Source: Bacillota bacterium
Lineage (GTDB): Bacteria > Sysuimicrobiota > Sysuimicrobiia > Sysuimicrobiales > Segetimicrobiaceae
Assembly (NCBI GenBank): GCA_021324295.1
Contig: JAJPJJ010000014.1
Location: 1 to 64,000 of the forward strand
Reading direction: 5' to 3'
Length of the DNA: 64,000 bases
Both the position numbers and the translations under genes were made by a program. Positions 6,910 to 18,436 of the stretch are shown piece after piece. The notes under the pieces are model-generated. The model did no database searches, was not told the DNA's origin, and worked only from the letters and a program-made list of their open reading frames with translations. Within the stretch, counting starts at the first letter, position 1, and each line of letters opens with the position of its first letter.

Positions 6910-8058
6910 TTACCGTTTCTCGAGCGGCACGTACGTCCGGTTGCGCGGGCCCACGTACTCTGCCCGCGGGCGGATCAGCCGGTTGTCCGCGAGCTGCTCC
7001 AGGACGTGCGCGGTCCACCCGCTGATCCGGCTCACGGCGAACAACGGCGTGAACAGGTCGAGCGGGATCCCGAGCGCGTAGTAGCACGAGGCGGAGTAGA
7101 AGTCGACGTTGCAGTGCAGGCGCTTCTCCTGCAGCATGAACTGCTCGATCGCCCGCGAGATCTCGAACCACTTCAGCTGTCCGGTCCGCCGCCCGAGCTC
7201 CTCCGACATGCGGCGCAAGTGCGTGGCGCGCGGGTCTTCCGTCTTGTAGACCCGGTGTCCGAAGCCGGGGATCTTCTTTCCGGCGGCGAGCATCTCCCGG
7301 ATCGTCGGGACGGCCCTGGACGGCTCGCCGATCTGAAGAAGGATGCGCATCACCGCCTCGTTGGCGCCTCCGTGGAGCGGGCCCTTGAGCGTGCCGAGCG
7401 CGGAGGTGATCGCGGAGTGCATGTCCGACAGCGTCGCCGCGGTGACGCGGGCTGAGAACGTGCTGGCGTTGAGCTCATGGTCGGCGTGGAGGATCAGCGC
7501 GACATCGACGGCGCGCACGCTCGTCTCGTCGGGGCGCCGGCCCCAGAGCATGGCGAGGAAGTTGGCGGCGTGGCCGAGACCTGGGTCGGGCGCGACCGGG
7601 GTCTGGCCGGTGCGCACCCGATCGATTGCCGCGACGATCGTGGCGATCTGGGCGGTCAGGCGCACGGCCTTCCGGAGGTTGGCCGGCCGCGAGTTGTCCC
7701 GAGCCTCGGGATCATGGAGCCCGAGCGCCGACACCGCGGTGCGGAGCACGTCGATCGGGAGCGCGTCCCGGGGGGCCGCCGCCACCAGGGTCGCCACCGG
7801 CTCGGGGAGCGCCCGGGCGGCGGCGAGGTCGCGGCGGAGCGCGTCGAGCTGGGGCCGGGTCGGCAGCTCCCCGTGCCACAGCAGGTACGCCACCTCCTCG
7901 AACGTGCCGTGCGCGGCGAGGTCGTGGATATCGTAGCCCTGGTACAGCAGGCGGCCCTCGAGACCGTCGACGAAGCAGATCCGGCTCGCCGCGGCGACGA
8001 CCCCTTCGAGCCCCTCGATCACGTGTGCAGGCGCGGGAGCGCCCGGCCCCGATTGCAT
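6910..8058 (-). CDS. Citrate synthase
   Basis: Condenses oxaloacetate and acetyl-CoA to citrate, entry to the TCA cycle, 382 residues, the size of the short Gram-positive/archaeal type. Active-site regions are clear: LILHADHELNAS (His), GPLHGGANE, IPGFGHRVYKTEDPRA (catalytic His), and CNVDFYSA (catalytic Asp), followed by SRISGWTAH with the substrate-binding Arg. GGAGG precedes the ATG at 8058. It lies on the same strand as trpA, 128 bp beyond its stop, and could be read as a tail of that operon or from its own promoter. A 2-methylcitrate synthase activity is the main alternative. Confidence 0.93.
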   Translation of the reverse strand: MQSGPGAPAPAHVIEGLEGVVAAASRICFVDGLEGRLLYQGYDIHDLAAHGTFEEVAYLLWHGELPTRPQLDALRRDLAAARALPEPVATLVAAAPRDALPIDVLRTAVSALGLHDPEARDNSRPANLRKAVRLTAQIATIVAAIDRVRTGQTPVAPDPGLGHAANFLAMLWGRRPDETSVRAVDVALILHADHELNASTFSARVTAATLSDMHSAITSALGTLKGPLHGGANEAVMRILLQIGEPSRAVPTIREMLAAGKKIPGFGHRVYKTEDPRATHLRRMSEELGRRTGQLKWFEISRAIEQFMLQEKRLHCNVDFYSASCYYALGIPLDLFTPLFAVSRISGWTAHVLEQLADNRLIRPRAEYVGPRNRTYVPLEKR

Positions 8059-8186: not shown

Positions 8187-9080
8187 CTACGCGCCCCCCT
8201 CGTCGATCGCGAGCCTGAGCGCGCGCACGAGGGCGCCCACCCGGCCGAGGTCGTCGGGCCTCTCCTCGAGCATCCGGACGAGCGCGCTCCCGACGATCGC
8301 GCCGTCCGCGATCCGGGCGACCTGCCGTGCCTGCGCGGGCCGGCCGATGCCGAAGCCCACGCACACCGGCGTCCCGGACTGCGCCTTGATCCGCGCGACC
8401 AGCTCTGCGAGCCCCTCCGGCAGCTCGTCCCGGACCCCGGTGACGCCGGTGCGCGAGACGCAGTAGATGAAGCCCGTGGACGCGGCCGCGACGGCGCGGA
8501 TCCGCGCCTCGGTGCTCGTGGGCGCGAGGAGGAAGACCGTCGCGAGGCCGGCCTGGCGGGCTTCCGCGATCAGCTCGTCGCCCTCCTCCGGCGGCAGGTC
8601 TGCGACGATGATGCCGTCGAGCCCCGCGGCGACCGCGTCTCGGCAGAAGGCGCCGACGCCGTGGCGGAGCAGCAGGTTGTAGTAGGTCATGAACGCGAGC
8701 GGCACCTGGGTCCGCTTCCGCAGGCGGGAGACGAGGTCGAGCGCCGGCCGCAGCGCCATGCCGTGCGCGAGGGCCCGGAGGCCGGCGCGCTGGTTGACCG
8801 GCCCGTCCGCGATAGGGTCGCTGAACGGCACCCCGAGCTCGATCGCGTCCGCGCCGGCGGCGACGAGCACTCCCACGAGCCGCTCCGTCGACGGCGGGTC
8901 CGGGTCGCCGGCCATGATGTACGGGATGAGCGCCTTGCGGCCCGCGGCCGCAAGGCCGGCGAGCGCCCGCACGAGACGGTTCGCCGCGAGTGCCGCGTCC
9001 GGGCCGGCGGCGGCGCTGCCCCGGAGCGCCACGGAGGGGGCGCGGGGAGCCCCGGCGGCCCGATCGGGCGTCGGCGTCAT
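8187..9080 (-). CDS. Tryptophan synthase alpha subunit
   Basis: Cleaves indole-3-glycerol phosphate to indole and glyceraldehyde-3-phosphate, 297 residues. TIM-barrel landmarks are [10 protein letters not shown] near residue 50, [15 protein letters not shown] with the catalytic Glu, [12 protein letters not shown] (catalytic Asp), [10 protein letters not shown] and [10 protein letters not shown]. It starts at 9080 with an ATGA overlap with trpB, the usual coupling for the alpha-beta complex. An N-terminal extension of about 30 Ala/Pro-rich residues precedes the barrel. It is the last gene of the aromatic operon. Confidence 0.96.
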
Positions 9081-10294
9081 GGCCGCCGGGTCAGGTCGTC
9101 GCCCGTCGCCTTGGCCACGGTCTCGACATCCTTGTCGCCGCGGCCGCTCAGGCCGAGGACGATCACCTTGTCGCGCCCGAGGGCGGGGGCCAGACGCGTC
9201 AGGTAGGCGACCGCGTGGGCCGGCTCGAGAGCGGGGATGATACCCTCGGTGCGCGAGAGGAGGTGGAACCCTTCGAGCGCCTCCGCGTCGGTGACCGCGA
9301 CGTACTGGGCCCGGCCCGTGTCCTTCAAGTACGCGTGCTCCGGACCGACGCCGGGGTAGTCCAACCCGGCCGAGATCGAGTGAGTGGCGCGCACCTGGCC
9401 ATCGGCGTCCTGCAGGAGATAGCTCAGCGCGCCGTGCAGCACGCCTGGGCTGCCGGCACAGAGGGTCGCGGCGTGCCGGCAGGTCGCGAGGCCGAGCCCG
9501 CCGGCCTCCACGCCGACCAGCGCGACGCCGGCGTCGTCCTTGAACGGGTGGAAGAGGCCCATCGCGTTGCTGCCTCCCCCCACGCACGCGACGCAGCAGT
9601 CCGGCAGGCGGCCTTCCGCCTCGAGGATCTGCGCGCGCGCCTCCCGGCCGATCACGGATTGAAAGTCGCGGACGAGCATCGGGTACGGGTGAGGGCCCAC
9701 GACCGAGCCGATCACGTAGAACGTGTCGCGCACGTTGGTCACCCAGTCACGGAGCGCCTCGTTGATCGCGTCCTTGAGCGTCCGGCTGCCCCCGTCCACC
9801 GGCACGACGCGGGCCCCGAGGAGCCGCATGCGGAAGACGTTGAGGGCCTGCCGCTCCATGTCGTCCGTGCCCATGTAGACGTCGCACGGCAGGCCGAACG
9901 CTGCGGCCGTCGCCGCGGTGGCAACGCCATGCTGCCCGGCGCCCGTCTCGGCGATGATCCGGCGCTTCCCCATGCGCACGGCCAGCAGCACCTGGCCGAC
10001 GGTGTTGTTGATCTTGTGCGCACCGGTGTGCAGGAGGTCCTCACGCTTCAGGTAGATCCGGGCGCCGCCGAGCGCCTCGGTGAGGCGCTGCGCGAAGTAC
10101 AGCGGGGTCGGGCGGCCGCACAGGGATCGCAGGCAGCGCTCGAGGTGGGCAGCGAACGCGGGATCGCGACGCGCCTCCTCGTAGGCGGCTTCCAGCTCCT
10201 CGAGCGCCGGGATCAGCGTCTCCGGCACGTAGCGGCCGCCGTAGATGCCGTACCGTCCCCGCGGCCGCACGCCCGTCTGTCCCTGCACCCCCAT
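9077..10294 (-). CDS. Tryptophan synthase beta subunit
   Basis: PLP enzyme joining indole and serine to tryptophan, 405 residues. The start at 10294 follows GGAGGTGA and forms a TGATG junction with trpF. It opens with [12 protein letters not shown]. The PLP lysine lies in [16 protein letters not shown], the phosphate-binding loop is [10 protein letters not shown], and [11 protein letters not shown] is typical of TrpB1 (the TrpA-partner type). Its direct coupling with trpA supports an alpha2beta2 complex. Confidence 0.97.
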
Positions 10295-10962
10295 CACGTC
10301 ACCTCCGGCCCCCGCCCTGTCGCCGCGGCGGCGTTCCACGCGCGCACCTGCGCGACGAACGCCCGGATCTTCGCCGGGTCCTTCCGGCCGTCCGTCTCGA
10401 CGCCCGAGGCGACATCCACCGCGTAGGGCTCCGCCGCCCGGATCGCCTCCGTCACGTTGTCGGGCGTGAGGCCCCCCGAGAGGATCACGGGCCCGGCCGC
10501 CCGCGCCCGCGCGGCAAGCGTCCAGTCGAACGTGCGCCCGGTGCCTCCCATCTCGCCGGGGACGTGCGCGTCGAGGAGGAACGCCGCGACCTGGTACCTC
10601 TCGAGGTCGCGCAGGCTCTCGGGGCCGCGCACCTTGATCCCCTTGATCACCGGCCGGTCGAACTGGCGGCAGAACTCAGGGCTCTCTGCGCCGTGCAGCT
10701 GCAACGCGTCGAGGCCGCACAGGCCGGCGATCCTCCGGACCGTCTCCGCGTCCTCGTCCGCGAAGACCCCGACCCGCGTCACAAACGGCGGCAGGCCGCG
10801 CGCGATCGCGCGCGCCGTCTCGGGCGCGATGTAGCGACGGCCGGGCCGCCAGAAGTTGAAGCCGATCGCGTCCGCGTCGGCGGAGACCGCGGCGAGGGCG
10901 TCCTCGAGCCGCTGGATCCCGCAGATCTTGACGCGCACGGCACCGGCGCGGCCATCCACCAT
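10294..10962 (-). CDS. Phosphoribosylanthranilate isomerase
   Basis: Converts N-(5-phosphoribosyl)anthranilate to the carboxyphenylamino-deoxyribulose phosphate, 222 residues, a free-standing enzyme not fused to TrpC. Family motifs are VKICGIQ near residue 11 (catalytic Cys), [26 protein letters not shown] (catalytic Asp), [11 protein letters not shown] and [10 protein letters not shown]+KD. It follows trpS with a 19-bp gap and overlaps trpB by one base. Confidence 0.96.
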
Positions 10963-10981: not shown

Positions 10982-12046
10982 CTACACGCCCACGCGCGCG
11001 GCCCGGAAGTAGTCCATCCCCATCGCGTCCAGGCACAGCGCGAGGGTCTCCTGTGCCTCCCGGCGCGCGACGCGGCTGCCTTCCACGATGATCTCCTCGA
11101 GCCGCGCCGGGGCGGCGGCCCAGGCGGCCCGGCGTGCGCGAATCGGATCCAGGAACTCGTTGAGGGCGCGGGCGAGGCGCTTCTTCACCTCGACGTCGCC
11201 CACGGTCCCCGCGCGGTACCGCTCCCGGAGTTCCTCGACCTCCGCGCGATCCTTGTTGAAGGCGTCGTGGTAGATGAACACCGGGTTCCCCTCGACGTGC
11301 CCGGGGTCCGTGGGGTGGATCCGCGTCGGATCGGTGAACATCCCCATGACCTTCCGGCGGACCGTCTCCGCGTCGTCCGACAGGAAGATCGCGTTGCCGA
11401 GCGATTTGCTCATCTTGGCCTGGCCGTCCGTGCCAACGAGCGTGGGCACCCGCCCCACGATCGTCTCGGGCTCGGGGAACACCGGCCCGTACATCTCGTT
11501 GAATCGCCGGGCCAGCTCCCGGGTCACCTCGAGGTGGCTCGCCTGATCCTTGCCCACCGGCACGACCTGAGCGCGCACCATCAGGATGTCGGCGGCCTGG
11601 AGCACGGGATACGACAGCAGTCCCAAGCTGGCGGTCTCGAGCTTGAGATCCCGCATCACTTCCTTGAGCGTCGGCACGCGCTGGAGGCGCGGCACCGTGG
11701 TCAGCATCGAGAAGATCAGGTGCAGCACCGCCACCTCCGGCACGAGCGACTGCAGGTAGATCGTGCTCCGCTCCGGATCGATCCCGACGCTCAGGTAGTC
11801 GAGGAGCAGCTCGTGGACGTGCTGGGCGATCTCGCGGGTGCGGTCGGCCCCGGTCGTGAGCACGTGGTAGTCGGCGATGAGGAAGAAGCACTCGTACTCG
11901 TCCTGCAGCCGGAGCCGGTTCTCGAGCGAGCCGACGTAGTGGCCCAGGTGGAGCGCGCCCGTCGGGCGGTCGCCGGTCAGGAGCCTCCCCCGCGGCGCCG
12001 CGGCGGCGCGGTGTGGGAGCGTCTCAGCGATCTGCGTCTCAGCCAT
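10982..12046 (-). CDS. Tryptophanyl-tRNA synthetase
   Basis: Charges tRNA-Trp, class Ic synthetase, 354 residues. The HIGH-type signature is [15 protein letters not shown] near residue 25 and the KMSKS loop is KMSKSLGN near residue 212. QRVPTLKE and [10 protein letters not shown] are further TrpRS signatures. The gene sits inside the tryptophan operon between trpC and trpF, so synthetase and amino acid synthesis are co-transcribed. The upstream Trp-specific T-box would therefore raise both when uncharged tRNA-Trp accumulates. Confidence 0.96.
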
Positions 12047-12079: not shown

Positions 12080-12895
12080 CTATCCCTCCCGCCCCAGCAG
12101 CTCCCGCAGACGGGCCGCCGGGTCGCGCGCCCGCATGAGGGCGGTGCCCACCAGGACGGCATCGACGCCCAGGCGTGCCATCTCCTCGACGTGCGCGCGC
12201 TCCTCGATGCCGCTCTCGCCGACGACCACGACCTCGGGCGGGACGGACGGCCGCAGCCGGCGGGTGACCTCAAGCGACGTCTCGAGCGTATCCAGGTCGC
12301 GGTTGTTGATCCCGAGAAGCGACGCGCGCGTGTCCAGCGCCCGCGCCAGCTCGTGCTCGTCGTGAACCTCGACGAGGGCGGCCATGCCCAGCGCCGCGGC
12401 CGTGCCCTGGAGCTCCTCGAGCGCCCCGCGGGGCAGGATCGATACGATCAGCAGGACCGCGTCCGCCCCGAGCACCCGCGCCTCGTACACCTGGTATGGG
12501 TCGAGCACGAAGTCCTTGCGCAGCACCGGGACCGCCACGACCTGCCGCACCCGGGTCAGGTGCTCGTCCGCCCCGCGGAAGAACCGCGTGTCCGTGAGCA
12601 CCGAGACGGCCGCCGCGCCGGCCGCCGCGTACGCGCGCGCGATCGCGGCCGGGTCGAACTCCTCGCGGATCGTGCCGGCCGACGGCGAGGCGCCCTTGAC
12701 CTCGGCGACAAGCCGGACCTCCCCGGCGCCGGTGCCGCCGCGGGCCGGGGGAGCGCCGCGCGCCGCGCCGGGCTCCGGCGGCCGCAGGGCCGCGCGGAAC
12801 GGCCGCGGCGGCGGTGCGTCGAGCGCGCGGGCGCGGACCTCCCGGAGCGGGATCCGCCGCCTCCGCTCGGCCAGCTCCTCGCCCTTGTGCGCCAC
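12080..12895 (-). CDS. Indole-3-glycerol phosphate synthase
   Basis: Closes the indole ring in tryptophan synthesis, 271 residues from the GTG at 12895. Motifs are VAEVKGASPSAG (catalytic Lys), SVLTDTRFFRGA, VLRKDFVLDPYQV, EVHDEHEL, LGINNRDLDTLE and GESGIEERAHV. Homologues begin a few residues earlier with a segment like LQQIVAHKGEEL. That segment is present upstream in frame (from about 12910) behind a GGGGGAGAGGA site but begins with CTG codons, so a non-standard start a few residues upstream is possible. An Ala/Pro/Gly-rich insertion of about 25 residues sits near residue 40. Confidence 0.94.
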   Translation of the reverse strand: MAHKGEELAERRRRIPLREVRARALDAPPPRPFRAALRPPEPGAARGAPPARGGTGAGEVRLVAEVKGASPSAGTIREEFDPAAIARAYAAAGAAAVSVLTDTRFFRGADEHLTRVRQVVAVPVLRKDFVLDPYQVYEARVLGADAVLLIVSILPRGALEELQGTAAALGMAALVEVHDEHELARALDTRASLLGINNRDLDTLETSLEVTRRLRPSVPPEVVVVGESGIEERAHVEEMARLGVDAVLVGTALMRARDPAARLRELLGREG

Positions 12896-12966: not shown

Positions 12967-13983
12967 CTACGCGAACTTCGTCTTCAGGCGCAGCGCCTCG
13001 AGCTTCGCGTAGGCGCGGCCGCTATCGATGCTCTCGGCGGCACGTGCCACCCCGTCCGGGACCGTCTGCGCGAGGCCGGCCGCCACCAGCGCGACCGCGG
13101 CGTTGGCGAGGACGATGTCGCGCCGCGCGCTCCGCTCCCCCCGGAGGATGCTCACACAGATCTGCGCGTTCTCCTCGGGGGAGCCGCCCCGCAGCGCCTC
13201 GAGCGGGGCCCGCCGAAAGCCCAGCTCCTCCGGCGCGAGCGTGTACGTGCGGACGGTGCCGTCGGCGACCTCGGAGACCTGGGTCGGAGCGCAGATCGAG
13301 ATCTCGTCCATGCCATCCTGGCCGTGCACGACGAACGCGCGCTCGGCGCCGAGCTGCGCGAGGACCCGCGCCATCACCTCCGTGTGCGCCAAACTCGGCA
13401 CGCCCTGCAGGTACCGGCGCGCCCCCGCCGGGTTGGTCAGGGGACCGAGGATGTTGAAGACCGTGCGGATGCCGATCTCGCGCCGCGGCCCCAGCGCGTG
13501 CTTGAACGCCGGGTGGAAGCGCGGCGCGAACAGGAACCCGAACCCGATCTCCTCGACGCACTCCTGGACGACGTCGGGCGGGGCGTCCAGGTTGATCCCG
13601 AGGGCCTCGAGCACGTCGGCGCTGCCGCTCCTGCTGCTCGCGGCACGGTTGCCGTGCTTGGCCACGTGGCCGCCGGCGCCGGCGACGACGAACGCCGTCG
13701 CGGTCGAGATGTTGAACGTGTTGAGCCGGTCCCCTCCGGTCCCCACGATGTCCACGAGGTGGTCGGCGCGGGGGCAGATCGTGACGGCGCGCTCGCGGAT
13801 CGCGCGGGCAAACCCCGTGATCTCCTCGACGGTCTCCCCGCGCACGGCGAGCGCGGTGATGAACGCCGCGATCTGAGCCGGCGTGGCCTCGCCGTCCATG
13901 ATCAGGCCCATGGCCCGGTGGGCCTCCTCCTCGGTGAGCGCCTGGCGGGAGACGACCTTGGCGAGCGCGGGCCGAAGCGGCAT
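12967..13983 (-). CDS. Anthranilate phosphoribosyltransferase
   Basis: Attaches phosphoribosyl from PRPP to anthranilate, 338 residues. The start at 13983 follows GGAGGGAGA. Signatures are DIVGTGGDRLNTFNIST (PRPP/anthranilate site), GGHVAKHGNRAASSRSGSAD (split around residues 105-125), RTVFNILGPLTNPA, and VVHGQDGMDEIS. It lies 4 bp after trpG, so TrpE-TrpG-TrpD are closely coupled. Confidence 0.96.
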   Translation of the reverse strand: MPLRPALAKVVSRQALTEEEAHRAMGLIMDGEATPAQIAAFITALAVRGETVEEITGFARAIRERAVTICPRADHLVDIVGTGGDRLNTFNISTATAFVVAGAGGHVAKHGNRAASSRSGSADVLEALGINLDAPPDVVQECVEEIGFGFLFAPRFHPAFKHALGPRREIGIRTVFNILGPLTNPAGARRYLQGVPSLAHTEVMARVLAQLGAERAFVVHGQDGMDEISICAPTQVSEVADGTVRTYTLAPEELGFRRAPLEALRGGSPEENAQICVSILRGERSARRDIVLANAAVALVAAGLAQTVPDGVARAAESIDSGRAYAKLEALRLKTKFA

Positions 13984-13987
13984 CGGG

Positions 13988-14650
13988 CTATCTCCCTCCG
14001 GCGACGTAGTCGGCGCTCCCCGACGCCGCGCGCCCGCCGGATGGACGCGGGGCGGGGGCGGCCGACCCGTCCCGCGCACCCCGCCGGGCCAGCGCGAGGA
14101 AGTTCCGAAGCAGCGCGTGCCCGTGCTCGGTCAGGACGGACTCCGGGTGGAACTGCACGCCCTCCACGAGCGCGGTGCGGTGGCGGACCCCCATGACGAC
14201 CCCGTCCTCGGTGCGGGCGGAGACCTCCAGCGGCGGCGGCAGGCTCGCGTCGTCCACGACGAGCGAGTGGTAGCGCGTGCCCACGAACGGGCTGGGCAGG
14301 CCCTCGAAGATCGTCCGGCCATCGTGGAAGATCCGCGACGTCTTGCCGTGAACCGGGAAGCGTCCGCGCACCACCGATGCGCCGCACGCGGCGCCGATGC
14401 ACTGGTGGCCCAGGCAGACGCCCAGGATCGGGATCGTCCCGGCGAGCGCCGCCACCGCGGCCGTGCTGACGCCGGCTTCGGCGGGGGTGCACGGGCCGGG
14501 CGAGATCACGATCGCCTCGGGCGCCATCGCCGCGATCCCCTCGACTGTGATCGCGTCGTTCCGGAAGGGCCGGGGATCCTCCCCCAGCTCGCCCAGGTAC
14601 TGCACGAGGTTATAGGTGAACGAGTCGTAGTTGTCGATCACGAGGATCAT
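13988..14650 (-). CDS. Anthranilate synthase glutaminase subunit
   Basis: Class I glutamine amidotransferase that feeds ammonia to TrpE, 220 residues. It opens with [18 protein letters not shown]. The nucleophile Cys is in [12 protein letters not shown], and the His/Glu pair in [12 protein letters not shown] 30-residue Ala/Arg/Pro-rich tail follows the core domain. It is separated from trpE by 8 bp. It may also serve aminodeoxychorismate synthase (PabA role), since no separate pabA is seen in the window. Confidence 0.95.
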
Positions 14651-14658
14651 GCGTCACC

Positions 14659-16137
14659 TCACAGCCCGCGCCCGGCCAGCTCGATCGCCCGGACCAACAC
14701 CTTGGCCTTGTTGATCGTCTCGTCGTATTCGCACGCGGGCGCCGAGTCGGCCACGATCCCGCCGCCGGCCTGCGCGTAGGCCACGCCGTCTTTGATGACA
14801 AGCGTCCGGATCGCGATGCAGGTGTCGAGCGCGCCGCCGAACCCCACGTAGCCCACCGCGCCCGCGTACGGGCCCCGCGCCGTGGGCTCCAGCTCGTCGA
14901 GGATCTCCATCGCGCGGACCTTGGGCGCCCCGCTCACGGTCCCGTGCGGGAAGACGGCGCGCAGCACGTCGAACGCGTCGCGGCCCGGAGCCAGGCGCCC
15001 CTGGACGAGGCTGACGATGTGCATGACATGCGAGTAGCGCTCGACCGTCATCAGCTCGGGCACCCGGACGGTGCCGTACCGGGAGATCCGGCCGACGTCG
15101 TTCCGCGTGAGGTCCACGAGCATGACGTGCTCGGCCCGCTCCTTCTCGTCGGCCAGCATCTCCTCGGCCAGCCGCCGGTCCTCGTCCTCGGTGAGGCCGC
15201 GCCGCCGCGTGCCGGCGATCGGGCGCATCTCCACGAGGTCGCCCTCCAGGCGCACCAGCAACTCCGGGGAGGCGCCGACGAGCGTCGCCTCGTCGCCCGC
15301 CAGGTAGAACATGAACGGGGACGGGTTGATCGCCCTGAGCGCCCGGTAGATCGCGAGCGGGTCGAGCCCACCGACGTCCACGGCGAAGCGCTGCGACAGG
15401 ACGATCTGGAACGCGTCCCCGGCGTAGATGTAGTCCCGGCACCGCTCCACGGCCGCGAGATACTGCTCGCGCGTCATGTTGGACCGGATGTTGAGCCGGC
15501 CCGGGGAGGCCGCCGTCGGCGGGGGGAGGGGCCGCCGCAGCAGGTCCAGCCACTCCTCGATGCGGTCCCGCGCCGCCCGGTACGCCCGCTCGGCGCCGTC
15601 GTCGACGCACGCGCTCGCGACGATACGAATGCGGTGGCGGAGGTGGTCGAAGACCATCACGGTATCGGCGAGGGCGAGGTGCAGGATCGGAAGGTGACGG
15701 TCGTCGGGAGGCTGGTGCGGGAGGCGCTCGAGCGTGCGGACCAGGTCGTACGAGAAATACCCGACCAGCCCACCGTAGAACCGCGGCAGGGTCGGATCCT
15801 CGACCGGGCGGTATCGCCCGAGGATCTCGCGCGCGGCGGCGAGCGGGTCCTGCGCCCGCACGCGCCTCGCCCCGTCCTCCACGATCTCGACGCCGTCCGG
15901 CCAGGCGCGCAGGGTGAGCCGGGGACGGGCGCCCAGGAAGGAGTAGCGGGCGAGCTTGCTGCTGCCCTCGGCGCTCTCCAGGAGAAACGCGTGCGGCAGG
16001 TGACGCAGACGCAGGAACGCCGAGATCGGCGTGTCGAGATCCGCGAGCACCTCGCACGAGACCGGGACGAGGTTGCCCTCGCGCGCTCGGCGATCGAACT
16101 CCGCCGCACCCGGTTCCAGGACCACCGTCCGCGCCAT
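14659..16137 (-). CDS. Anthranilate synthase component I
   Basis: Makes anthranilate from chorismate with ammonia from TrpG, 492 residues. The N-terminal region holds AFLLESAEGSSKLARYSFLG, the LLES element known to bind feedback tryptophan. The C-terminal chorismate-binding domain has PSPFMFYL, IAGTRRRGLTEDED, VDLTRNDVGRIS, FPHGTVSGAPKVRAME and GGGIVADS. Length and motifs fit TrpE better than PabB. Activity is probably feedback-inhibited by tryptophan in addition to T-box control. Confidence 0.96.
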   Translation of the reverse strand: MARTVVLEPGAAEFDRRAREGNLVPVSCEVLADLDTPISAFLRLRHLPHAFLLESAEGSSKLARYSFLGARPRLTLRAWPDGVEIVEDGARRVRAQDPLAAAREILGRYRPVEDPTLPRFYGGLVGYFSYDLVRTLERLPHQPPDDRHLPILHLALADTVMVFDHLRHRIRIVASACVDDGAERAYRAARDRIEEWLDLLRRPLPPPTAASPGRLNIRSNMTREQYLAAVERCRDYIYAGDAFQIVLSQRFAVDVGGLDPLAIYRALRAINPSPFMFYLAGDEATLVGASPELLVRLEGDLVEMRPIAGTRRRGLTEDEDRRLAEEMLADEKERAEHVMLVDLTRNDVGRISRYGTVRVPELMTVERYSHVMHIVSLVQGRLAPGRDAFDVLRAVFPHGTVSGAPKVRAMEILDELEPTARGPYAGAVGYVGFGGALDTCIAIRTLVIKDGVAYAQAGGGIVADSAPACEYDETINKAKVLVRAIELAGRGL

Positions 16138-16145
16138 CGCCGCTC

Positions 16146-17036
16146 CTATCCGTCCTCCCGCGCCCCGCGCGCGGGGCGCCCGGCGGGCTGCGACCGCTCG
16201 CGCAGCCGCAACCGGGCCCGCCGGGCGCGCTCGAGCAGCGCATCGAACCCGTCGCCGTCCGCAAGCGCCGCCTCGAGCCGGGCGAGCTCCTCGCGGAACG
16301 CCCGCAGGGCGCCCTGGATGGGCTCACGGTTGAGGCGGCAGATCTGCGCCCACATCTCCACGGGGCTGCCGGCCACCCGCGTCGCGCCGAGAAACGCCGG
16401 GCCCGCCGCGTTCCCCGCGGACCCGCAGATGCCGACGAGCGCCGCGGCCACGAGGTACGGGAGGTGGCTCACGACCGCGACGGCGCGGTCGTGCGCCTCC
16501 GGATCCATCGCCACGGGCCGCGCCCCCAGGGCGCGCGCGAGGCCGGTGAGGCGCTCGCACGCGTCCGCCGGCGTGCGCGGGGTCGGCGTCAGCAGATAGA
16601 CCGCACCCTCGAACAGGGAGGCCGCGGCCGCCGCGATCCCGCGGCCCTCGTTGCCGGCCATCGGGTGGCCGCCGAGAAACGCCACCCGGCTGCCGGGGCG
16701 GAGGAGCGCCTCGATCGCGCGGACGATCTCCGCCTTGACGCTCGCGACGTCGGTCACGAGCGCGCCGGCGCGCAGGTGGGGCAGCGCCCGCCGCGCCATC
16801 GGCACGACGAGGTCCGGCGGCGTCGCGAGCACCACGAGGTCCGCTCCGTCCACGCCCTCCACCGGATCCACCGTGCCGCGGTCGATCGCGCCGCGCGCGC
16901 GGGCCGCCGCGATCGTCTCCGGCACGCGGGTGACGCCCACCACCTCCCCGGCCAGCGCGCGCCCGCGCAGGGCCATCCCGAGTGAGCCGCCGATCAAGCC
17001 CACCCCGATGATCGTGACGCGCTCGAAGAGGGGCAT
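16146..17036 (-). CDS. Prephenate dehydrogenase
   Basis: Oxidatively decarboxylates prephenate towards tyrosine, 296 residues. The start at 17036 follows GGGAGAGG. It has an N-terminal Rossmann fold (IIGVGLIGGSLGMAL at about residue 8), FLGGHPMAGNEGRG, and the catalytic His in VVSHLPYLVAAAL. The C-terminus is the all-helical dimer domain; there is no chorismate mutase fusion and no ACT domain. An arogenate dehydrogenase preference is possible. It is 8 bp upstream of trpE in the operon, so tyrosine synthesis is co-transcribed with tryptophan genes. Confidence 0.92.
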   Translation of the reverse strand: MPLFERVTIIGVGLIGGSLGMALRGRALAGEVVGVTRVPETIAAARARGAIDRGTVDPVEGVDGADLVVLATPPDLVVPMARRALPHLRAGALVTDVASVKAEIVRAIEALLRPGSRVAFLGGHPMAGNEGRGIAAAAASLFEGAVYLLTPTPRTPADACERLTGLARALGARPVAMDPEAHDRAVAVVSHLPYLVAAALVGICGSAGNAAGPAFLGATRVAGSPVEMWAQICRLNREPIQGALRAFREELARLEAALADGDGFDALLERARRARLRLRERSQPAGRPARGAREDG

Positions 17037-17065: not shown

Positions 17066-18088
17066 TCAGACGCGTCGCCCGACGGCGAGGGCGATCGCGT
17101 CCAGCTCCTGCATCATGACGGCGAAGTTCTGCGGGGTGAGCTGCTGGGGGCCGTCGCTCAGCGCGCGGTCGGGCTCGGGGTGGACCTCCACCAGCAGGCC
17201 GTCGGCCCCCGCGGCGACGGCCGCCCGCGCCATCGGGGTCACGAGCTTCCACTTCCCGGTGCCGTGGCAGGGGTCGACGATCACGGGCAGGTGGCTCAGG
17301 CGCTTGAGCACCGGCACCGCCGTGAGATCCAGCGTGTACCGCGTGTAGGTCTCGAACGTCCGGATGCCGCGCTCGCAGAGCACGATGTTGCTGTTGCCCT
17401 CGGCCATGATGTACTCGGCGGCCAGCAGCAGCTCCTCGACCGTGGCGCTCGGCCCGCGCTTGAGGAGCACCGGGTGGCCGGCGCGGCCGACGTCCCGCAG
17501 CAGGGTGTAGTTCTGCATGTTCCGGGCGCCGATCTGCACCATGTCGGCGTACTTGACGACGAGCTCGAGCTGGCGCGCGTCCATCGCCTCGGTGACGATC
17601 GGGAGCCCGGTCGCCTCGCGCACCTCGGCGAGGATCTTGAGGGCGTCCTCCTCGAGCCCCTGGAACGAATACGGGGAGGTGCGCGGCTTGAAGGCGCCGC
17701 CGCGGAGCAGCTGCGCGCCAGCCAGCTTGACCGCCCGGGCGGTCTCGATCACCTGCCTGGGGCTCTCGACCGAGCAGGGGCCGGCGATCACGACGACGCG
17801 CCCGCCCCCGATCGCGACGTTGCGCACCCAGACGGTCGAGTCGCGCCCGCCGTGAAATTCCCGGCTCACGAGCTTGTACGGCTGCAGGATGCGCACGACG
17901 CTTTCGACGCCCGCCATCGCCTCAAGGCCCTCCCGGAGCAGCTCCTTGGTGTGGCTGTCGCCGATCACCCCGATCACGGTGCGCTCCACGCCCTCCGTGA
18001 CCTGAGCGCGGAGCCCCGCCTCCTCGACCTTGCGGACGACCCCTTCGCGCTCCGCCCGTGTATGCCGGGGGCTCATGACCACGATCAT
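17066..18088 (-). CDS. 3-deoxy-7-phosphoheptulonate (DAHP) synthase
   Basis: First shikimate-pathway step, joining phosphoenolpyruvate and erythrose-4-phosphate, 340 residues. The start at 18088 follows AAGGAGG. An N-terminal ferredoxin-like regulatory domain (about 70 residues, [15 protein letters not shown] onward) precedes the barrel, as in the Thermotoga-type AroF, where it mediates allosteric inhibition. Barrel motifs are [48 protein letters not shown] and [12 protein letters not shown]. It is the first gene of the aromatic operon, directly after the T-box leader. Confidence 0.96.
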
Positions 18089-18120
18089 CCTGCCGCCTCC
18101 TTGCGCGCGACCATGGCCAA

Positions 18121-18157
18121 AATAGAAAAGGCCCCCCGTCCCTCGGGACGGGAGGCC
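18121..18157 (-). terminator. Rho-independent terminator of the T-box
   Basis: On the minus strand GGCCTCCCGTCC (18157-18146) pairs with GGACGGGGGGCC (18141-18130) over a CGAG loop, followed by TTTTCTATTTT. Its 5' arm includes the CGTCCC needed for the competing antiterminator, so termination and tRNA binding are mutually exclusive. Confidence 0.9.
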
Positions 18158-18421
18158 ATTGTGCCGCCCGCGGTACCACCCCACTTCCCCGACATCGCGC
18201 CGGGGCCCTCTCCGGGACCACAGCCATCCGGCAGGACCGGCCTGGTCCCCGCCTCCCGCTCACGGCGGAGGAGCCGGCGGCGACTACTCCGCGGTGGATG
18301 CCGCGTTTCGGCGCGCCCCTCGCGGGTCCATTCCGCCCGGGCGCCTCCCGCGCTCCCACCGCGCGCGCGGGTCTCTCGAAGGCACCGCGAGGCGTACTCG
18401 CCCCGGTCGTCGGGTTTGGTA
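18121..18421 (-). promoter_or_regulatory. Tryptophan T-box riboswitch
   Basis: The leader of the aroF-trpA operon carries the canonical T-box sequence GGGTGGTACCGCGGG (18181-18167 read on the minus strand), with the UGGU bulge at 18178-18175. Stem I contains AGTA at 18398-18395 and GAA-TGG-A with the codon TGG at 18330-18328. CGCC just after AGTA pairs with GGCG just before GAA, and CGGG/CCCG close the other side, so AGTA/GAA form the specifier loop. The specifier is therefore UGG, Trp. GCG and GGG around the bulge can pair with CGTCCC (18150-18145) to form the antiterminator. Uncharged tRNA-Trp should permit read-through. Confidence 0.92.
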
Positions 18422-18427
18422 CCCCCT

Positions 18428-18436
18428 ACTATAGCA
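18428..18436 (-). promoter_or_regulatory. Promoter of the aromatic operon (extended -10)
   Basis: The minus strand reads TGCTATAGT, an extended -10 element, placing the transcription start near 18421 immediately before Stem I of the T-box. No good -35 lies 16-18 bases upstream; a TTGACG is only 8 bases away and too close. The same TGCTATAGT element precedes rpmH at 58119-58127. Confidence 0.65.

Follow-up and report, generated by a model that had tools for sequence, protein, structure and literature searches.

Transcriptional T-boxes specific for tryptophan have been described upstream of trp genes, such as trp of Lactococcus lactis and trpE of Dehalococcoides, and it is established that T-box specificity changes by divergence and after duplication (PMC2494555, excerpt, where the former are cited). 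The antiterminator of class I T-boxes is defined by a 7-nt UGGNACC bulge located between A1 and A2, with a G-U pair at the base of A2 (PMC7583486, excerpt). T-boxes have been named for Firmicutes, Actinobacteria, Chloroflexi, Thermus/Deinococcus, and Geobacter, and the phylum of the DNA studied here is absent from the distribution given in the excerpt of that source (PMC3766115). Joint aro-tyr-trp units under attenuation are represented by the supraoperon of Bacillus subtilis and a cluster of Desulfovibrio vulgaris (PMC1173090, excerpt). In a non-exhaustive literature search, no listing was found of an aroF-tyrA-trp operon headed by a Trp T-box or of T-boxes in Sysuimicrobiota.

The window, that is, the whole stretch of 64,000 nucleotides that was analysed, contains on its minus strand, at about 18421-18130, a complete T-box leader of the transcriptional type, which lies between a promoter-like element and aroF. 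Like the known Trp T-boxes (RF00230, TBDB), it combines a UGG specifier and an antiterminator/terminator switch with trp genes downstream, and it has a UGGN bulge, the U of which is often opposite a discriminator G. Unlike them, it also heads aroF and tyrA, has trpS within the operon, and is very GC-rich. With the aro-trp supraoperon of B. subtilis, controlled by TRAP, and the aro-tyr-trp cluster of D. vulgaris it shares, as far as the excerpted account of these goes, the gathering of aromatic-entry, tyr, and trp genes in what is predicted to be one transcription unit. In that account attenuation relies on a protein in the former and on a putative, unspecified attenuator in the latter, whereas the leader of the window is a tRNA-Trp T-box.

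Among 80 named loci, a T-box motif shortly 5' of aroF was found in those belonging to the order of the window (L039-L042) and in five others, from Clostridia and relatives. By eye, the latter carry a Phe specifier (L061, L062, L071, and L102) or a Tyr specifier (L082), and L061 and L071 exceed the Rfam cut-off. The leader of the window resembles these in being located shortly 5' of the DAHP synthase gene and differs from them in its Trp specifier, theirs being without trp genes following in the stretches examined. Given that the Clostridia-type aroF leaders read Phe or Tyr, the Trp specifier on aroF in the window goes with the linkage to trp.

The leader is best explained, with a probability of about 0.92, as a canonical class I tRNA-Trp T-box that would attenuate aroF-tyrA-trpEGDC-trpS-trpFBA, with Trp charging setting the whole operon. 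Its sequence anatomy, covariation, conservation, and gene content, on which this explanation is based, were all observed. From 5' to 3', the leader is composed of Stem I, Stem II, Stem IIA/B, Stem III, antiterminator, and terminator, all given here on the minus strand. Stem I (18319-18412) carries an AGUA S-turn, an AG bulge, a distal loop, and a specifier loop of the form GAA-NNN-A/G, and is seen in the consensus fold and compensatory changes of 11 sequences. The specifier UGG (Trp), within GAA-UGG-A, is located at 18328-18330 and is invariant in the 11 leaders of the family. Of the helices that the sequence-only reading had placed around this loop, CGGG/CCCG beneath it is upheld by 3 of the 11 sequences, in which C-G has become G-C; CGCC/GGCG above it can be formed in the window, but further up the family consensus pairs in a slightly shifted register. 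Stem II, with an AGUA S-turn, and the Stem IIA/B region, with a CCGUGA F-box, are found at 18245-18310 (helices 4-6 of the consensus fold). They are followed by the purine-flanked hairpin of Stem III (18187-18205; helix 7). In the antiterminator (18145-18181), A1 (GGG/CCC) and A2 (GCGGG/CCCGU) enclose the 7-nt bulge UGGUACC, and a G-U pair closes the base of A2. The competing intrinsic terminator, detected by a terminator scan (18120-18157), consists of a hairpin at 18157-18130 with a helix of 12 bp and of a T tract, TTTTCTATTT. Because the strand CCCGUCCC is common to antiterminator and terminator, the two structures are mutually exclusive. The bulge and the terminator are intact, as had been claimed, and the latter is the sole terminator locus between 8000 and 18700 (a second row of the scan is a shorter stem within the same hairpin). 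Directly 5' of the leader, an extended -10 promoter-like element, TGC-TATAGT (TGCTATAGT, 18428-18436), was recognized by eye, and a consensus promoter scan gave no -35/-10 pair. In a relative (L222), a resembling sequence, TGGTATAGT, lies 5' of the second T-box.

The covariance check that the sequence-only reading had proposed gave a result in two parts. In the window, RF00230 matches as two colinear halves, one at 18412-18319, covering Stem I (22.2 bits, E 0.0089), and one at 18211-18144, covering Stem III and the antiterminator (25.6 bits, E 0.0012); neither reaches the gathering score of 93, at which no T-box is reported in the window. The orthologous aroF leader of G027 is matched over its full length, with all 219 positions and 97.6 bits, above the cut-off. 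Given that this orthologue passes, the low score of the window seems to be due to its GC-rich sequence and extra length. The presence of a T-box, as originally claimed, is clear from other measures. The T-box core GGGTGGTACCGCG, at 18181-18169, is the sole match in the window when up to 1 mismatch is allowed (mean of 0.20 in shuffles), and the ordered Stem I motifs AGTA...GAGAG...GAATGGACC occur once, at 18398-18325, and are absent from all 100 shuffles. Folding energy was dropped as proof of a T-box, being uninformative in a GC-rich leader: it is ordinary for the composition, with a z of -1.57 and 9 of 100 shuffles equally good.

When the leader of the window was aligned with those of 10 relatives, RNAalifold found Stem I unaided in the resulting 11 sequences. 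The 56 pairs evaluated are the RNAalifold consensus minus its long-range pairs, which tilts the slid control towards them; they are paired in 96.4% of cells, with double-sided changes in 13 pairs, compared with 90.8% and 7.3 double changes in shuffles and, in slid versions, with 44.5-52.9% and 0-6. Pairing of the terminator helix is seen in 95.1% of cells, and the specifier stretch GAAUGGACC, the UGGUACC bulge, and the CCCGUCCC strand are invariant in the 11 family members.

Downstream of the leader, NCBIfam profiles identify ten tightly spaced genes, all on the minus strand, and the proposed operon from DAHP synthase to TrpA proved right in both genes and order. These are aroF (DAHP synthase of 340 aa, 17066-18088, start at 18088; TIGR01361, 402.5 bits, and NF006421), tyrA (prephenate/arogenate dehydrogenase, 16146-17036, start estimated; NCBIfam and PF02153), trpE (14659-16137; TIGR00564, 554.3 bits), trpG (13988-14650; TIGR00566), trpD (12967-13983, start estimated; TIGR01245), trpC (12080-12895; NF001377), trpS (tryptophanyl-tRNA synthetase, inside the operon, 10982-12046; TIGR00233), trpF (10294-10962; NF002298), trpB (9077-10339 as the longest frame, with the true start probably near 10267; TIGR00263), and trpA (8187-8970, start estimated; TIGR00262). 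The trp genes and trpS match the specifier, and aroF and tyrA make the gene content broader than Trp. The own genome gave one match to aroF-type DAHP synthase and one to TyrA, both in the operon, and a search of it for class II DAHP synthase gave none; with the genome estimated to be 96% complete, the single-copy calls for aroF and tyrA are strong, not absolute. This supports the claim that the regulon would span shikimate entry and tyrosine synthesis. A citrate synthase gene (6910-8058, minus strand) lies 128 bases past trpA. It was not adopted as an eleventh gene of the operon, given that its distance to trpA varies widely among relatives.

The CCA anticodon of uncharged tRNA-Trp would pair with the UGG specifier, and the UGGU bulge would take up the 3' GCCA end of the tRNA, the discriminator G by wobble. 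This pairing would stabilise the antiterminator and allow RNA polymerase to read into aroF-tyrA-trpEGDC-trpS-trpFBA, and with charged tRNA-Trp the terminator would stay formed. Binding of the tRNA, the read-through response, co-transcription as far as trpA, and the physiological effect are all expected from the features of the locus. Trp charging would then set shikimate entry, the tyrosine branch, Trp synthesis, and the expression of TrpRS, and would reach the first two because aroF and tyrA are apparently single copies. In this organism, the reach of a tryptophan signal thus probably goes beyond tryptophan.

The sequence-only reading had allowed the bulge to pair with a discriminator A or, by wobble, with a discriminator G, and it is the second partner that is retained. 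A pattern search for tRNA-Trp gave 33 places in 29 of the 43 genomes of the order; 30 of these were read, and comprise 28 canonical genes, one place cut by a contig end (L162), and one odd candidate from the own genome (L168). All 28 canonical tRNA-Trp genes carry a discriminator G, so that a discriminator-A tRNA-Trp was rejected as explanation of UGGU. Given that the UGGU bulge is found in 11 of 11 family leaders, it would face the discriminator G by G-U wobble pairing. This is not odd, and is common among Trp T-boxes: UGGU is opposite a discriminator G in 46% of those in TBDB (PMC7778990, excerpt). Of the 46 tRNA matches in the own assembly, each of which was read, none is a canonical tRNA-Trp. 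In several close relatives the tRNA-Trp gene sits close to the end of a contig, on a short stretch, and the own gene is for this reason probably absent from the assembly. The odd candidate is a tRNA-like element with a CCA anticodon (L168 1477-1548, G000:C118, 34.2 bits), which has neither a normal D arm nor a CCA end and is doubted as the cognate tRNA.

Across the order, a DAHP synthase match was found in 39 of 43 genomes and some T-box match in all 43. The named DAHP synthases nearest to that of the window are from two genomes called 'Terrabacteria group bacterium ANGP1' (86% identity; L039 and L040), followed by two records called Armatimonadetes (69%; L041 and L042), all of which we take to belong to the CSP1-3 group. 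This group has been named Sysuimicrobiota, with one order, in which the family Segetimicrobiaceae is the most abundant in soils (PMC11604079, excerpt). The order studied is probably CSP1-3/Sysuimicrobiota.

The upstream stretches of 40 aroF places were examined, and the specifier could be read in 35, two of them from the single genome G027, whose second copy is identical to that of G040. Two leaders were unreadable because the sequence is cut inside the leader (G025) or at the gene (G018), and no T-box was found 5' of the second aroF of G001, nor 5' of aroF in G029 and in G017 (the match in G017 being partial). The proposed UGG reading holds in 32 of the 35 leaders, two of which (G038 and G030) were read apart from the scripted scan, and the remaining 3 read UUC, where the aroF leader is apart from trp. 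In all 35, aroF is the first operon gene 3' of the T-box, and the order aroF-tyrA-trpEGDC-trpS-trpFBA is retained across most families. The second aroF of G001 (L201) has no T-box motif, and TGCTATAGT is found immediately 5' of the gene.

The trpS slot is empty in G013 and G015. Elsewhere it holds two types of TrpRS, with 35-42% versus 68-87% identity to that of the window (first group: L211, L213, L214, L215, L218, L231, and L234-L236; second group: L197-L200, L202-L204, L206, L207, L212, L217, L219-L222, L225, L230, and L237). Both types occur within genus g11 (G030 versus G018), and this looks like replacement in place.

The three UUC leaders differ in the genes that they head. In G023, a UUC T-box precedes aroF-tyrA and a UGG T-box precedes trpE onward; in G019, aroF is the sole gene headed by the UUC T-box, and tyrA-trpE onward have a UGG T-box of their own; in G022, a UUC T-box precedes aroF, and a search of the genome for the trp operon did not find it. 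By eye, the specifier loop is GAG-UUC-A in G022 and G019. On the aroF tree, which has 40 rows, the 33 that bear a UGG or UUC label require 2 changes, and a single origin of UUC is rejected (p-AU 1.9e-6 for the three UUC rows together). Judged from these comparisons, the Phe specifier arose at least twice, with an aroF leader no longer common to the trp genes. Because the switch to UUC occurs where aroF is off the trp leader, the reading of the specifier is strong. The nearest neighbours of each UUC leader are UGG leaders from the same family or, within its genus, the other UUC leader, so that the simplest account is a specifier change in a leader that had been inherited. For the same reason, an import of pheS leaders is not favoured, in a comparison that contained no pheS leader. 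The bulge differs as well, being UGGU in the Phe leader and UGGC in the Trp leader of G023 and G019; these fit the discriminators A and G, respectively, the A of tRNA-Phe having been read in the own genome only. With RF00230, the UUC leaders of G022 and G019 score 43.8 and 63.6 bits, and the leaders of G023 are not reported at E 0.01.

Specifier and gene content are imperfectly matched in a few genomes: G015 has a UGG T-box before aroF and a second one before trpE, and in G016 and G035 aroF retains UGG where trpE has only distant homologues and trpB only TrpB-like or weaker matches. In genus g9 (G029 L224, G016 L225, and G035 L244), trpEGDCFBA has apparently been lost; G016 retains UGG T-box-aroF-tyrA-trpS, G035 retains a UGG T-box before aroF (cut by the contig), and G029 has no T-box motif 5' of aroF and a promoter-like TGCTATACT nearby. 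A TrpB-like (TrpB2) gene under its own UGG T-box is found in G016, G037, G029, and G015 (L275, L276, L279, and L277), among them genomes in which the search for the trp operon did not recover it. A possible function is indole salvage controlled by tRNA-Trp. At L226 and L228, an aroF with a Phe T-box adjoins a second T-box, which at L226 heads, by eye, genes for acetolactate synthase, ketol-acid reductoisomerase, and 2-isopropylmalate synthase. The other T-boxes of the own genome (L001, L002, L003, and L004; gene names and specifiers by eye) precede an acetolactate synthase-like gene (CUC), proC (CCC), an aminotransferase-like gene (UCC), and a pheS-like gene (UUC).

Given that TBDB takes the -1 and +1 frames into account (PMC7778990, excerpt), GAAUGGA could also be read as GGA (Gly) or AAU (Asn), and the T-box would then respond to another tRNA. 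This is very improbable: GAA-UGG is retained in nearly all readable leaders, the specifier read in the +0 frame is Trp in front of trp genes and Phe where the leader heads aroF apart from trp, and the operon contains no glycine or asparagine genes. A decayed T-box that has lost its switching would be in line with the low Rfam score of the window, yet the invariance of specifier, UGGUACC, and CCCGUCCC in the family and the conserved pairing of the terminator helix leave this with hardly any likelihood.

It is unlikely, to a lesser degree, that the T-box matters for the trp genes only, with aroF and tyrA mainly controlled through feedback on DAHP synthase or from other promoters; the wide regulon would then have little effect. 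DAHP synthases are usually feedback regulated, and the second aroF of a relative (L201) and that of G029, near TGCTATACT, are without T-box, which speaks for such a separation. Against it, aroF comes first after the T-box in every readable leader, and the specifier has changed to Phe where aroF is off the trp leader, suggesting that the signal received by aroF matters. The canonical tRNA-Trp T-box acting on the whole operon is the explanation that we retain. As an RNA, the leader is an ordinary T-box of a known family, and what is distinctive is the breadth of the Trp-controlled operon, the fact that it is conserved throughout the order, and the re-specification of aroF leaders on independent occasions.

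A broader and tentative proposal, which we place slightly below even odds, is that tRNA-Trp charging was the ancestral transcriptional sensor of the phylum for all aromatic entry, from which lineages have repeatedly escaped by means of an own aroF leader, with or without tyrA, and a change from UGG to UUC that the bulge base followed. The escape would have been repeated because the supply of Phe and Tyr was tied to the status of Trp. If this is true, these genomes hold a natural record of regulon rewiring through the specifier bases. The switches from UGG to UUC are clean comparative material on the rewiring of regulons. The finding adds an uncultured phylum to those with T-box control, one for which no earlier description was found in the literature searched. 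With one tRNA signal over a branched pathway, added tryptophan should lower the expression of DAHP synthase and TyrA, and the cells could be starved of both phenylalanine and tyrosine if neither basal read-through nor feedback made up for this.
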